DNA of 26,261 nucleotides from a virus. The notes beneath the pieces were generated by a model. That model did not search any database, was not told the origin of the DNA, and was given only the letters and a program-made list of their open reading frames with translations. Each line of letters opens with the position of its first letter. Positions within the stretch are counted from its first letter, which is position 1. The position numbers and the translations under genes are program-made. Location of the stretch: the IMG/VR virus record IMGVR_UViG_3300025671_000438, positions 1 to 26,261 of that record; one strand, given 5' to 3'. Positions 2,706 through 24,916 of this stretch are shown one piece after another.

Positions 2706-3428
2706 GTGGCTTACATGGACAACATAAGCGGTTACTTAGACCTCCAGACAGGCTACCTAGACCTCCTGTCTGGCGTCGATGTCATCTGCACAGCATCCGC
2801 GTCAGCCACGGCATCCGCCACAGCTTCGGCAACAAAGCCTGCGTCAGCCACCGCAACAGCAGCAGCCAGCGCATCAGCCACGCCGTCTGTAACCCGTGGC
2901 GGCGCGGCAGCCATCACCGCCACAGCCGACGCGACAACCACCGCTTCAGCCACAAAGCCGTCATCAGCCAGCATCACGGCAACCGCCAGCACATCAGCCA
3001 CGGCAGGCGGCGGCATTCAGGGCGAGGCAGCCGTCACGGCCTCAGCATCTGCGTCAGCAGAAGCAACAATCACCCGTGGCGGCGTGGCCACCGCAGCAGC
3101 AACAGCCACCACCACCCTAGACGCGAATTACACAGTCGCGTCAACGACCGCATCCGCAACAGCAACCGCATCGGCCCAGCTCACAACGGCAGAGCAGGGC
3201 GCGGCATCCATCAGCGCAACAGCTCAAGCGCAAGCGACAGCATCTGTCACATTCGGCGCAACGGCCACAGCGATTGCAGCAGCCTCCGCAGCCGCATCCG
3301 GCGGCCTACGCCTTGGCGGCATCGCAACAATCGCAGCAACCGCATCAATCACAGCGGCCCCAGAAGTCAAAGGCGAGCTATGGGTAGATCAAGTTTGTGA
3401 CGAACCGTTTTGGAGACGCTACGCATGA
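2706..3428 (+). CDS. Ala/Thr/Ser-rich repetitive virion protein
   Basis: This 240-residue protein is almost wholly low complexity. After a short head (MAYMDNISGYLDLQTGYLDLL) it alternates small residues (ASATATA-type) in imperfect blocks of roughly 30-40 residues, punctuated by Gly motifs such as TRGG at 63-66 and 123-126 and RLGG near 202. It closes with a non-repetitive acidic/aromatic tail (WVDQVCDEPFWRRYA). The alternating pattern suggests repeated beta-strands in an extended fibre or decoration, but no family is recognised. The start is GTG with AAAGGG 8 nt upstream; an ATG three codons later is possible. The stop overlaps the next start. Confidence 0.7.
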   Translation: MAYMDNISGYLDLQTGYLDLLSGVDVICTASASATASATASATKPASATATAAASASATPSVTRGGAAAITATADATTTASATKPSSASITATASTSATAGGGIQGEAAVTASASASAEATITRGGVATAAATATTTLDANYTVASTTASATATASAQLTTAEQGAASISATAQAQATASVTFGATATAIAAASAAASGGLRLGGIATIAATASITAAPEVKGELWVDQVCDEPFWRRYA

Positions 3429-19385: not shown

Positions 19386-19771
19386 TGTCAATCCGCAAGA
19401 ACCAGCCCTGGAAGGAGTGCCTAGACGAGCGCGGCAGCAGTCTGCACATCGTCACGGGTCGCGTAGAAACCCAAGACGGCATTTTCTACCACACCGCTTG
19501 CGGTCAGACCTTAGAGCGCAACAACATCCCAGACACAGGAAGCTGCATCCGCACGTCCCGTTGCCGCCTTTGCTCCATAGGCGTTGACGCTGGAGTTGTT
19601 GATGAGATGGTGACCGCCGTCCTCGGTATTGACGGATACCATGTGAGCGGAATCAGCTACGACGCCCTAGCAGCGATAAGGGAGCGGTACGGCGAAAAGA
19701 GTAGGACGCTAAGAGCTATGGTGGAAAAAGAGCTTGCCGCACGCAGGGGGGAACACAATGCACCCAAATAA
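19385..19771 (+). CDS. Hypothetical protein with Cys/His cluster
   Basis: The 128-residue product contains a possible metal-binding cluster: YHTACGQTL (about 35-43) and GSCIRTSRCRLC (about 52-63), spacing that could form a zinc ribbon. The C-terminal half is helical with YDALAAIRERYGEKSRTLRA. No family is recognised. It lies between the DUF6378-like gene and the primase-helicase, overlapping both. I used ATG 19385 in the TGATG junction; an in-frame GTG one codon earlier is possible. A DNA- or RNA-binding accessory role for replication is only a guess from context. Confidence 0.62.
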   Translation: MSIRKNQPWKECLDERGSSLHIVTGRVETQDGIFYHTACGQTLERNNIPDTGSCIRTSRCRLCSIGVDAGVVDEMVTAVLGIDGYHVSGISYDALAAIRERYGEKSRTLRAMVEKELAARRGEHNAPK

Positions 19772-21755
19772 AGATGTTATAAAACAATACCTTAGCGACC
19801 TAACGGCCCCGCAAGGCGACCTAGACGCCTGCTGGGAAATCAGGTTCATCCCTCCTGATCGAGAGCCTGGAAAACCGCCATACTCTATCTTCAAGGCAGA
19901 CCCCACAACCGCCATCGACGAAATAGCCCAGTCCAACGAATACGGATACAACGTTTACGTTGGCATCAACCCTAGAAAGCCGGATGCTAAGTCCGGCACA
20001 GCGTCCGACGTACTTTGTGCGCTATGGCATGTGGCCGATTGTGACGACAAGTTGTCATCTGACAACCTGGCGGCAATCGTCAGCGAGGACGAGTACCTAG
20101 TCCCAGAAATGGTAGTCACGACCGGCACAGAGCCTGAAACGCGCCTACACGCCTATTGGCGACTGGAAGACCCTTCTTACAACATGGCGGCCTGGTCCGA
20201 CATCCAGAAAGGCATTGCGATCACTGTCGGCTCAGACGACAAGATCATTGACCCGCCAAGGATTATGCGCTTGGCCGGGACCATCAGCCACCCCAGCACA
20301 ACCAAGGCGTCTAGGGGGTACAAGCCAGAGGTCACGACCTACGAGAGGAACAGCAGCTCGGACGCAATCGCGGCTCAAGAATTCCAGTCGCTATTTGGCT
20401 TCGACCTTACGGCAAAACCGGATGCAGAGCCTAGCGACAGCTTTTTTGCCGAAATGCACGAAGGCAGGACATCCAAGGAAGTCTACGACCTGTTGCAGGC
20501 TTCTAGGCAATCTGGCGAATGGTATTTCAACATGCGCTCGGCGGTCTCAAGCCTGATCGGCAAGGGGTTCAGCGACGGCGAGATCCGAATGATCGTCGGG
20601 CCGTACTGCGACGGCGGGTTTGCAGACAAAGACCTAGACCCGTTCTTGCATGACATGCGACGCGACTGGAACATGCCAAGCCCTAAAGACAGGACGGAAA
20701 GCAGGGCCGAGGTCGCGGATATCCACTGGGGGCCGACTATCAAGCCCGCCCTCGATCACAATGACTTCGTGAAGGGGGTAATCTCCGAAGGCGCTCTTTC
20801 GCTAGTCTATGGTCCATCCAACGTAGGCAAGACCTTCTTCGTTGCCGATATTGCTATGCACGTCGCGGCAGGCATGCAATGGAGAGACAGACGAATCAAT
20901 GGTGGCGCTGTGATCTATATCGCTATGGAGGGTATGGCTGGCATCAGCAACCGCGTTGTTGCGTGGCGCAATCATTATCGCCAGCCACTAGAGAACTTCG
21001 GCCTGCTGCCAGCGACATATGACCTATGCAAGAGCGAGACTGACCCGGAGCGTTTGCTTATGAAGGTTCAGGAGGCCCAGGAAGCGATCCAGCAGCCCAT
21101 CAAGCTGATTGTGATCGACACCCTTGCCAGAGCAATGGCTGGCGGCTCAGAGAACGCCGGAGAAGATATGGGACTACTCATTAGGCACTGCGACATGCTG
21201 CGGAACGAGACGGGCGCACACGTCCTCCTAGTTCACCACAGCGGCAAGTCTGCGGAGCAAGGCGCTAGGGGCCACAGCTCGCTTAGGGCTGCGGTGGACA
21301 CGGAGATCGAGCTGAGCAAAGACGAGGACGGCCCGGCTGTTGCAATCGTCAGAAAGCAGCGAGACATGGAGATCAACGGCTACTGGCCATTCGCCCTGGA
21401 GCCTGTCGTTCTGGGCGTTGACCAAGAAGGCAACGAAGTCACAAGCTGCATCGTCGTCCCGGTAGACCAGTCAGAAATGCCGCAAAAGAAAAGGAAGCTT
21501 AGCAAGGATGCCCAGACACTGGAGGATGCCTTCGAAGAGGTCAGGACAGCAGCGCCACTCAAACGTGGAGTCTACGACGCCGCCAGCCTGCCCGAAACCC
21601 GCATCGCCTTTGAGCGCAAAATCAGAGGCAGCGTCCAAACCAAAAGCGCAGCCTGGGCAAAGGCCAGCAGAGAACTAGAAGACAGGTACGCTAGAGACGG
21701 TGATGTTCTAGTAAGAAGGTCAGCCCCATTCGAAATGGCAACAGATGAGTATTGA
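19758..21755 (+). CDS. Primase-helicase fusion (RepB-like AEP primase + RecA-like RepA helicase)
   Basis: The 665-residue product has an archaeo-eukaryotic-type primase region in its first 215 residues: WHVADCDD (Asp94 and Asp96 likely metal ligands), TRLHAYWRL (His131) and DPPRIMRLAGT. Residues about 340-550 are a RecA-like helicase: Walker A GPSNVGKT (352-359), Walker B LIVIDT (about 450-455), LLVHHSGKS near 491 and a GHSSLRAAVDTEIEL block. It should unwind DNA and lay primers at the fork. ATG 19758 follows a GGGGGGAA site and overlaps the previous gene. A linker (about 215-330) joins the parts. No polymerase is seen nearby. Confidence 0.85.
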   Translation: MHPNKDVIKQYLSDLTAPQGDLDACWEIRFIPPDREPGKPPYSIFKADPTTAIDEIAQSNEYGYNVYVGINPRKPDAKSGTASDVLCALWHVADCDDKLSSDNLAAIVSEDEYLVPEMVVTTGTEPETRLHAYWRLEDPSYNMAAWSDIQKGIAITVGSDDKIIDPPRIMRLAGTISHPSTTKASRGYKPEVTTYERNSSSDAIAAQEFQSLFGFDLTAKPDAEPSDSFFAEMHEGRTSKEVYDLLQASRQSGEWYFNMRSAVSSLIGKGFSDGEIRMIVGPYCDGGFADKDLDPFLHDMRRDWNMPSPKDRTESRAEVADIHWGPTIKPALDHNDFVKGVISEGALSLVYGPSNVGKTFFVADIAMHVAAGMQWRDRRINGGAVIYIAMEGMAGISNRVVAWRNHYRQPLENFGLLPATYDLCKSETDPERLLMKVQEAQEAIQQPIKLIVIDTLARAMAGGSENAGEDMGLLIRHCDMLRNETGAHVLLVHHSGKSAEQGARGHSSLRAAVDTEIELSKDEDGPAVAIVRKQRDMEINGYWPFALEPVVLGVDQEGNEVTSCIVVPVDQSEMPQKKRKLSKDAQTLEDAFEEVRTAAPLKRGVYDAASLPETRIAFERKIRGSVQTKSAAWAKASRELEDRYARDGDVLVRRSAPFEMATDEY

Positions 21756-21844
21756 CAGCCAGGCAACCCTATGACACAGTAGCAAGGTGTCCTCCGTAGG
21801 GACATGTTTCCTACTGTGTTGCTCCGGTCTCAAGCATGGCTGTT
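21754..21844 (+). ncRNA. Candidate structured RNA: predicted three-way junction
   Basis: Three helices can be drawn by hand. P1 pairs 21755-21761 (ACAGCCA) with 21837-21843 (TGGCTGT), extended by GC pairs after one mismatch if P3 yields. P2 is a long hairpin, 21774-21819: nine perfect outer pairs (ACACAGTAG with CTACTGTGT), a few mismatches, and an inner 6-bp stem around the loop CCGTA. P3 pairs TGCT (21820-21823) with AGCA (21833-21836). P2, P3 and the 3' strand of P1 abut without unpaired bases, which favours a compact fold. P1 begins in the stop codon of the primase-helicase. An intrinsic terminator follows at 21855. Confidence 0.6.
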
Positions 21845-21854
21845 GAGCAAACTA

Positions 21855-21891
21855 AAGCCGCCCTAGGTTAAACTGGGGCGGCTTCTTTTTT
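21855..21891 (+). terminator. Strong intrinsic terminator after the primase-helicase / ncRNA
   Basis: AAGCCGCCCTAG (21855-21866) pairs with CTGGGGCGGCTT (21873-21884) over 12 bp with one G-T wobble, around the loop GTTAAA, followed by C and six T. This is a textbook rho-independent terminator for rightward transcription and would give a defined 3' end to the candidate RNA. Confidence 0.92.
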
Positions 21892-22001: not shown

Positions 22002-22036
22002 GCAGAACAAGCGGAACACATTGAATAACGTAGTTC

Positions 22037-22100
22037 ACAGTAGCGCGCGAACCGCATGGACCCTTAGGGGAATGCGTGTTCGTCGCAAGCGCTAAACTGT
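22037..22100. other. Long imperfect hairpin
   Basis: Nested complementary arms span 64 nt: ACAGT (22037-22041) with ACTGT (22096-22100), AGCG (22042-22045) with CGCT (22090-22093), CGAAC (22048-22052) with GTTCG (22078-22082), CGCAT (22053-22057) with ATGCG (22072-22076), and CCC with GGG around a short loop. Small bulges separate the blocks. It could act as RNA structure or as an origin-type DNA hairpin. Confidence 0.6.
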
Positions 22101-22450: not shown

Positions 22451-22503
22451 TGCACCATTGGCCTCGCCCCTCCCTTCGGGAGTCCGGGGCGAGCCAAGGT
22501 GCA
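22451..22503. other. Long GC-rich hairpin (18 bp, two bulges)
   Basis: TGCACC (22451-22456) pairs with GGTGCA (22498-22503), and the helix continues through TTGG/CCAA and CTCGCCCC/GGGGCGAG with one bulged base between each block. An inner hairpin CTCCC-TTC-GGGAG caps it. Rightward there is no T-run; leftward the flanking bases read TTTCTATT, so a weak terminator for leftward transcripts is conceivable. It is among the strongest potential structures in the window. Confidence 0.75.
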
Positions 22504-22534
22504 ACTGAGCGAGACAGCCTAAAAACGTGATGCA

Positions 22535-23742: not shown

Positions 23743-23957
23743 CGATAGAGAAGACATGGAACGCTGGCGAGGTTGTGAGTCTGGCGGTTGATTTGCAAGG
23801 CGAATCGGTCGCTATCATAGCCGACACCATCGACAGCGAAGGCGTCCTGGGGCCACTAGAATACCTGGAATTCCCGGCGAGCATGCTGCCAGGGTTGATT
23901 ACGCAGTTGTTGGATGCTCAAGCTGCGGGGGAGCCTAAAGAGAAGGAGGCGTTCTAA
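23739..23957 (+). CDS. Small alpha/beta protein, possible paralogue of the preceding gene
   Basis: The 72-residue product has strands (EVVSLAVDLQGESVAIIADT and LGPLEYLEFP) and then a helix (MLPGLITQLLDAQAAGE), ending acidic/basic (PKEKEAF). The layout matches the preceding 75-residue protein: a strand pair, a Pro, then one amphipathic helix. No catalytic residues stand out. The strong ribosome site of the next gene lies inside its last codons. It starts in an ATGA overlap. Confidence 0.62.
   Translation: MTIEKTWNAGEVVSLAVDLQGESVAIIADTIDSEGVLGPLEYLEFPASMLPGLITQLLDAQAAGEPKEKEAF
23943..23949 (+). promoter_or_regulatory. Strong ribosome binding site of the pentapeptide-repeat gene
   Basis: AAGGAGG ends 8 nt before ATG 23958 and is embedded in the last codons of the upstream gene. 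It is stronger than neighbouring sites and points to high expression of the pentapeptide-repeat protein. Confidence 0.7.
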
Positions 23958-24293
23958 ATGGAGATGACTCAGAAAGAGCTAACAGAAATTTTGGCTGACC
24001 ATAGCCTATGGCTCAAAGGGCACGGGGGAAAACTAGCGAACCTGATTGACTCGGACCTGTCTAAAGCGAACCTAGACGGCGCGAACCTGGTCAAAGCAAA
24101 CCTGGAAGGCGCTACCTTGACCGGTGCTGACTTGCGCGGTGCTAAGTTGGCCAATGCGAACCTGATCGGTGCCGACCTGACCAACGCGAACCTGGTAGGT
24201 GCTGACTTGACCGGCGCTAGACTAGCAGGCGCGTATCTGCACGGCGCGAAACTGGAAGGCGCGCTTGTGGGAGATGGAGTTGAACGCAAATGA
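23958..24293 (+). CDS. Pentapeptide-repeat protein
   Basis: The 111-residue product has a helical head (EMTQKELTEILADHSLWLKG), then from about residue 33 to 105 an unbroken series of A(N/D)LxG-type pentapeptides, about 14 units, predicting a short right-handed quadrilateral beta helix. Such proteins can mimic DNA and inhibit gyrase (MfpA and Qnr types), but many have no known function. The regular array gives a repetitive DNA sequence, with GCGAACCTG-like units. ATG follows the previous TAA directly and has a strong AAGGAGG site. The stop overlaps the next ATG. Confidence 0.85.
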   Translation: MEMTQKELTEILADHSLWLKGHGGKLANLIDSDLSKANLDGANLVKANLEGATLTGADLRGAKLANANLIGADLTNANLVGADLTGARLAGAYLHGAKLEGALVGDGVERK

Positions 24294-24306
24294 CAATTGA
24301 GGCAAA
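24287..24306 (+). repeat. 20-nt direct repeat at two gene starts, copy 1
   Basis: CAAATGACAATTGAGGCAAA spans the start codon (ATG 24290) of the methylase-like gene and recurs exactly at 24903-24922 over the start of the ThyX gene. Confidence 0.85.
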
Positions 24307-24916
24307 GGTGGCTGCGCTTTATGTAGAAAACGGCGGGTGCTATTTCGGCATCGATGGCGTTGAACCGTGGGATAAAGAGCGGGACGCTAGGCTTTACGGC
24401 GGCCCTTATCCTGTAGTTGCGCATCCACCTTGCAATCTTTGGACGCGGTTTGCTCATGTGAACTACGCTAGATGGGGTGGTGAACATAACCGCCCAGGGA
24501 ATGACGGCGGATGTTTCAGCCATGCTCTCAAAACGGTGCGGCAGTTCGGGGGCGTGTTAGAGCACCCAGCATTTTCGGACGCTTGGAAAGAGTATCACCT
24601 AAAGCGGCCCGAAGGCTTAGGCTGGATAAACGTCAAGGATGGAGAGTGGGTCTGTGAGGTTTGGCAATCGGCCTATGGCCACAAGGCTAGAAAAAGGACG
24701 TGGCTTTTGTACTGCGGCGGCGCACAGCCGCCAGAACTAGAATGGAGCCGCCCAGAAGGGACGCATCAGATAGGTTTTCACGATCAACGGGGCAAAGCCA
24801 GGAACAAGCCGACAGTCAGCGGCAAAGCGGCAAGCGCTACACCGATCAAGTTTCGGGATGCGCTGATATATATGGCAAGAAATTCAAACAAGGATGCAGG
24901 AACAAATGACAATTGA
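24290..24916 (+). CDS. DNA-methylase-like protein with PPC motif
   Basis: The 208-residue product has an N-terminal segment ending PYPVVAHPPCNLW (about residues 39-51) and a later FGGVLEHPAFSDAW block (about 85-98), a pair typical of a phage protein family sometimes annotated as cytosine-methylase-like. The PPC motif recalls the catalytic Pro-Cys of C5-cytosine methyltransferases, but a full set of SAM-binding motifs is not visible. It could modify bases, or be a diverged or inactive relative. It overlaps the pentapeptide-repeat gene (ATGA), and its stop lies inside the start of ThyX. Confidence 0.6.
   Translation: MTIEAKVAALYVENGGCYFGIDGVEPWDKERDARLYGGPYPVVAHPPCNLWTRFAHVNYARWGGEHNRPGNDGGCFSHALKTVRQFGGVLEHPAFSDAWKEYHLKRPEGLGWINVKDGEWVCEVWQSAYGHKARKRTWLLYCGGAQPPELEWSRPEGTHQIGFHDQRGKARNKPTVSGKAASATPIKFRDALIYMARNSNKDAGTNDN

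Follow-up and report, generated by a model that had tools for sequence, protein, structure and literature searches.

In the crenarchaeal plasmid pRN1, a stem-loop of ~100 nt behind orf904, the gene for its primase-polymerase/helicase, is necessary and sufficient in cis, and the terminator neighbouring this origin stem-loop is dispensable; the sequence of the stem-loop is unconserved, but its structure is kept (Berkner et al., PMC4234260). A similar stem-loop has been noted in phage BIP-1 as a putative origin (PMC4234260). RSF1010 has a hairpin site, ssiA, to which its AEP primase RepB′ binds (PMC4434180), and phage NrS-1, according to the accessible part of its description, initiates at the short motifs TTTGGTTA and GTG (PMC8718748). 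AEP primases fused to RepA-type helicases and winged-helix domains are also known from mobile elements (PMC5862659).

The DNA analysed here (hereafter the window) is an IMG/VR virus record of 26,261 bases, in which a 673-residue protein, Rep, is encoded directly upstream of a two-tier stem-loop and a terminator (Table 1). Against Pfam, Rep matched AAA_25 (1.8e-38) and, weakly, Prim-Pol, and a PDB search with a profile built from six relatives returned RSF1010 RepA (1g8y, 1.3e-6) and the cyanophage S-2L PrimPol (6zp9, 2.4e-4). Structural comparison (VIA) of the AlphaFold2 model (pLDDT 78.5) gave Z 23.2 with RepA over residues 325–587 and Z 20.2 with 6zp9 (rmsd 2.8 over 183 residues, Rep 9–222), S-2L PrimPol being the best structural match of the prim-pol domain. 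With its AEP primase-polymerase and RepA-type helicase, Rep is therefore of a kind that acts at origins, and we regard it as a putative origin-binding initiator. Its last 80 residues contain helices at 591–606, 620–633 and 638–654, modelled with low confidence, and in the Rep relatives the C-terminal end resembles a small domain of helices, possibly of the winged-helix type.

Table 1. Positions of the rep gene and of the elements downstream of it in the window
Feature	Positions	Strand	Basis
rep, coding for an AEP primase-polymerase joined to a hexameric helicase of the RSF1010 RepA type and a helical, possibly winged-helix, C-terminal domain	19734–21755	+	Pfam, PDB profiles, AF2
Two-tier stem-loop, 95 nt, candidate replication-origin element	21752–21846	.	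folding; position repeated in relatives
Closing helix, 5′ arm, stop codon 21753–21755 inside	21752–21761	.	sequence, fold
Closing helix, 3′ arm	21837–21846	.	sequence, fold
46-nt hairpin	21774–21819	.	outer arms ACACAGTAG/CTACTGTGT, inner stem GTGTCCT/GGGACAT
Intrinsic terminator, presumed end of the Rep transcript	21855–21890	+	12-bp stem 21855–21884, then T-run
Additional (third) occurrence of CACAGTAG(C), the word of the hairpin arms	22036–22044	+	repeat count; not significant alone

The stem-loop consists of a closing helix of 10 bp, two of them G-U, and an enclosed 46-nt hairpin, both evident from sequence and folding, and the Rep stop codon, TGA, sits within the 5′ arm of the closing helix. 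A preliminary description of this DNA had already recognised that helix, although at the shorter extent of 21755–21761 paired with 21837–21843. It had also recorded the hairpin, which we recovered with nine outer base pairs, all perfect, as well as the inner stem, and the terminator, which has the expected GC-rich stem (8 GC among its 12 bp) running into CTTTTTT and is most simply taken as the end of the Rep transcript. Two finer points did not hold: the small hairpin proposed at 21820–21836 comprises only 4 bp, which are seen in the DNA fold and give way to different pairing in the minimum-energy fold of the RNA, and the stacking is not gapless on both sides, 12 nt lying between the closing helix and the 46-nt hairpin on the 5′ side. 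The 156-nt stretch that contains both stem-loop and terminator folds at −69.5 kcal/mol (z −6.2), a value as low as which was found in none of 200 shuffles. Taken alone, the fold of the 95-nt element (z −3.9 on the plus strand) is not exceptional, because other stretches fold comparably (it was one of the seven lowest in a scan of the record by 1047 sliding windows, and thus not unique) and nine perfect 9-bp inverted repeats are present in the 26 kb. The significance of the stem-loop comes from its position, not from the strength of its fold.

The same ~860-nt stretch, with few convincing genes, holds a second long hairpin at 22451–22504 (TGCACC…CTCGCCCC/GGGGCGAG…GGTGCA; 121 nt, z −4.6), which may be another site of priming or a repeat with no connection to the first. 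Elsewhere in the window, TCAGCCA occurs six times within 300 nt (2701–2900) at the start of the ORF 2706–3428, and positions 24290–24913 encode a phrog_12600 protein common to Pseudomonas and Caulobacter phages and small microviruses.

Relatives of Rep were gathered by helicase-based searches of IMG/VR. Immediately after the stop codon of Rep, these relatives carry short repeats, direct and inverted, and nested hairpins that usually consist of a 7-mer in 4–13 copies of either orientation. The identity of the 7-mer varies by lineage (CGGGACA, TGTAGAA, GTATGAA, GTGTAAA, CATCACA, CCAGACA, CGAAACA, ACTTCCG and others), and in many relatives the inverted copies nest into a hairpin centred on a sequence such as CCCCCTAAAGGGGG or CCCTTTAGGG. 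In the Roseobacter phages CRP-811 and CRP-823, Rep is followed by ACTACAAA repeats and an inverted-repeat hairpin; in the accessible portions of the literature on CRP-8xx roseophages and on mycobacteriophage RepA origins, a comparable element was not found. Measured against other genes of the same loci, the 150 nt behind Rep fold markedly better (median z −3.42, n = 35, versus −0.36, n = 160; p = 1.5e-8) and the 300 nt behind Rep hold more copies of one 7-mer (2–13 versus 2–4; p = 3e-20), in a comparison where most of the 160 control sites extend into coding sequence and the loci are partly non-independent. At least three copies of one 7-mer were found at 31 of the 35 loci. A second set, taken from bacterial genomes, comprised 75 loci, of which 54 had at least four copies or z < −3, and some of this set resembled the window in having a strong hairpin but two or three copies. 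Neither hairpin nor repeats were detected behind Rep in four relatives (L038, L057, L105 and L107). The repeats occur in both orientations and also beyond the hairpins, as would be expected of protein-binding DNA sites. We also noticed that a motif similar to TTTCAATGGGTTA recurs near the repeats behind Rep in several lineages (L014, L018, L021, L099 and L003); it may be a conserved signal for priming, comparable to the TTTGGTTA of NrS-1 in the accessible part of that phage's description.

The nearest relatives, L008, L010, L011, L012 and L030, encode Rep proteins 39–42% identical to that of the window (the L030 gene being partial), and each carries a hairpin of 43–44 nt that starts 14–15 nt past the Rep stop, where the window hairpin, at 46 nt, starts 18 nt past it. 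Position and approximate size are common to the window hairpin and those of L008–L012; direct alignment of these hairpins revealed no convincing sequence homology. Comparison of L008 with its sisters, only four distinct sequences in all, showed two pairs altered on both sides. Inspected by eye, the nearest relatives show no terminator behind the hairpin, and their next gene apparently lies within ~100 nt. A DNA similarity search in phage records returned no match, and across all IMG/VR an exact 18-mer of the element occurs only in a near-identical contig, L087, whose stretch, identical over the region, is the only DNA homologous to the element. L087 and the window diverge precisely at position 23957, where there is an 8-base indel, a pattern that suggests recombination or assembly branching; a pentapeptide-repeat-like ORF with a 15-nt period occupies 23957–24293. 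A capsid-based search for sister phages found contigs whose capsid matches that of the window fully or at 95% identity, but these do not span the region of the element. L249 and L250 encode a capsid protein identical to that of the window, and the candidate origin region falls outside these two contigs.

We consider the stem-loop to be a DNA element, namely the replication origin of the phage or its initiator-binding or priming part, and put the probability of this at roughly two in three. From the precedents of pRN1, of ssiA in RSF1010 and of the AEP/RepA fusions, we infer that Rep, produced from the gene directly upstream, would bind the inverted arms, probably via its C-terminal domain, that its RepA-type hexameric helicase would load and open the stem-loop, and that its primase-polymerase domain would begin to synthesise DNA on the strand so exposed. 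The neighbouring T-run hairpin would serve as an ordinary intrinsic terminator closing the Rep transcript. Cumulative GC skew, a weak indicator in what is a fragment, is lowest at ~22.5–23.5 kb, about 1–2 kb from the element. Several short repeat copies beside rep, as in iteron origins, are seen in most relatives and not in the window. Here CACAGTAG is present three times, two of the copies being the hairpin arms, a number reached in 15 of 200 shuffles and not significant as an iteron array. Exact and mismatch counts likewise yielded no significant iterons in the window, the best mismatch family being TGGCTGTT (six copies at one mismatch, equalled in 2% of shuffles at one of several settings).

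The pattern over the relatives is more interesting than the lone hairpin. There is an even chance, in our estimate, that phages and prophages with a prim-pol/RepA-helicase fusion share one class of origin, of which we found no description, with nested inverted repeats directly behind rep and a repeat word that is swapped between lineages, presumably along with the region of Rep that binds DNA; the window would then be a variant reduced to the stem-loop and nearly devoid of extra repeats.

The preliminary description had instead suggested a functional RNA. In that case the element would be a structured non-coding or cis-acting RNA, such as a 3′-UTR small RNA derived from the Rep mRNA, ended by the terminator and serving as a regulator or as a protector of the mRNA 3′ end. 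The stable fold, the genuine terminator immediately downstream and several plus-strand G-U pairs would all suit such an RNA, which we nevertheless judge unlikely. The element folds equally well from either strand (minus −38.7 versus plus −40.1; z −4.1 versus −3.9), and in 32 post-stop regions (the window, 30 IMG/VR loci and one roseophage) the plus strand folded better in 17 (p = 0.67), giving no strand preference, with equal G-U fractions across the strands (0.085 and 0.084). Because both DNA strands fold equally and the relatives show no strand preference, the functional-RNA reading is unsupported. The Rfam search proposed in the same description, once run, produced no match for the element at gathering score, and the best sub-threshold match at permissive thresholds was ctRNA_pGA1, with 24 versus 45 bits. 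Its suggestion of a tRNA-reminiscent layout gained nothing from ARAGORN, which predicted no tRNA or tmRNA genes. A simple scan found no promoter-like site near the element. The orientation of the relatives' repeats, which run both ways and extend outside the hairpins, also argues against an RNA, as does the want of a visible terminator behind the hairpin in the nearest relatives.

We find it quite unlikely that the region is an operon-end double structure acting solely in transcription termination or as a barrier to 3′ exonucleases, with no role in replication. The terminator is convincing and the run of plus-strand genes ends at this region, but a 12-bp terminator has no need of a preceding 95-nt stem-loop, and the position of the stem-loop recurs in relatives in which such a terminator was not seen and whose next gene appears to follow so closely. 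Chance folding of GC-rich intergenic DNA, for which one might cite the other stretches of the record at z −4 to −5 and the frequency of 9-bp inverted repeats (nine per 26 kb), is very unlikely, given that the exact position behind Rep recurs in most relatives and that the size is about equal in the nearest ones.

If the stem-loop is indeed an origin element, a simple rule would locate the origins of many uncultivated phages and prophages, directly behind the primase-polymerase/helicase gene, and the lineages would offer a natural series for studying joint change in an initiator and its binding word. The case also counsels against taking strong folds behind replication genes for new RNAs without a strand test.

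Among the described systems, the primase-polymerases of phage NrS-1 and cyanophage S-2L share the AEP prim-pol domain with Rep, whereas a stem-loop is not described for NrS-1 in the accessible part of the report (PMC8718748). At the iteron origins known from RepA-type plasmids and from phages, P1 among them, the initiator gene adjoins short repeats, as in most relatives; the window differs in that its repeats fall short of significance. The initiator of P1, also named RepA, is unrelated. The oriV of RSF1010, with its RepA helicase, RepB′ primase, RepC initiator, ssiA/ssiB hairpins and iterons, comes closer in its helicase fold, its AEP primase and its use of hairpins as priming sites (a candidate role here), as well as in the iterons seen in most relatives; it differs in that three proteins do there what one fused protein would do here, and in that the window is without a clear iteron array. 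For pRN1, the function of the stem-loop has been shown, for that system only; its terminator precedes the stem-loop, whereas here the terminator follows it, and its Rep has an SF3 helicase, whereas the helicase of the window Rep is of the RecA-fold AAA_25/RepA kind. Since the SF3 helicase defines the pRN1 family, we describe the locus as one that would work like pRN1 rather than as a member. With pRN1 it has in common an AEP prim-pol domain in Rep, a stem-loop of ~100 nt at the stop codon of the prim-pol/helicase gene, an adjoining terminator, and a turnover of sequence in which the structure is retained.
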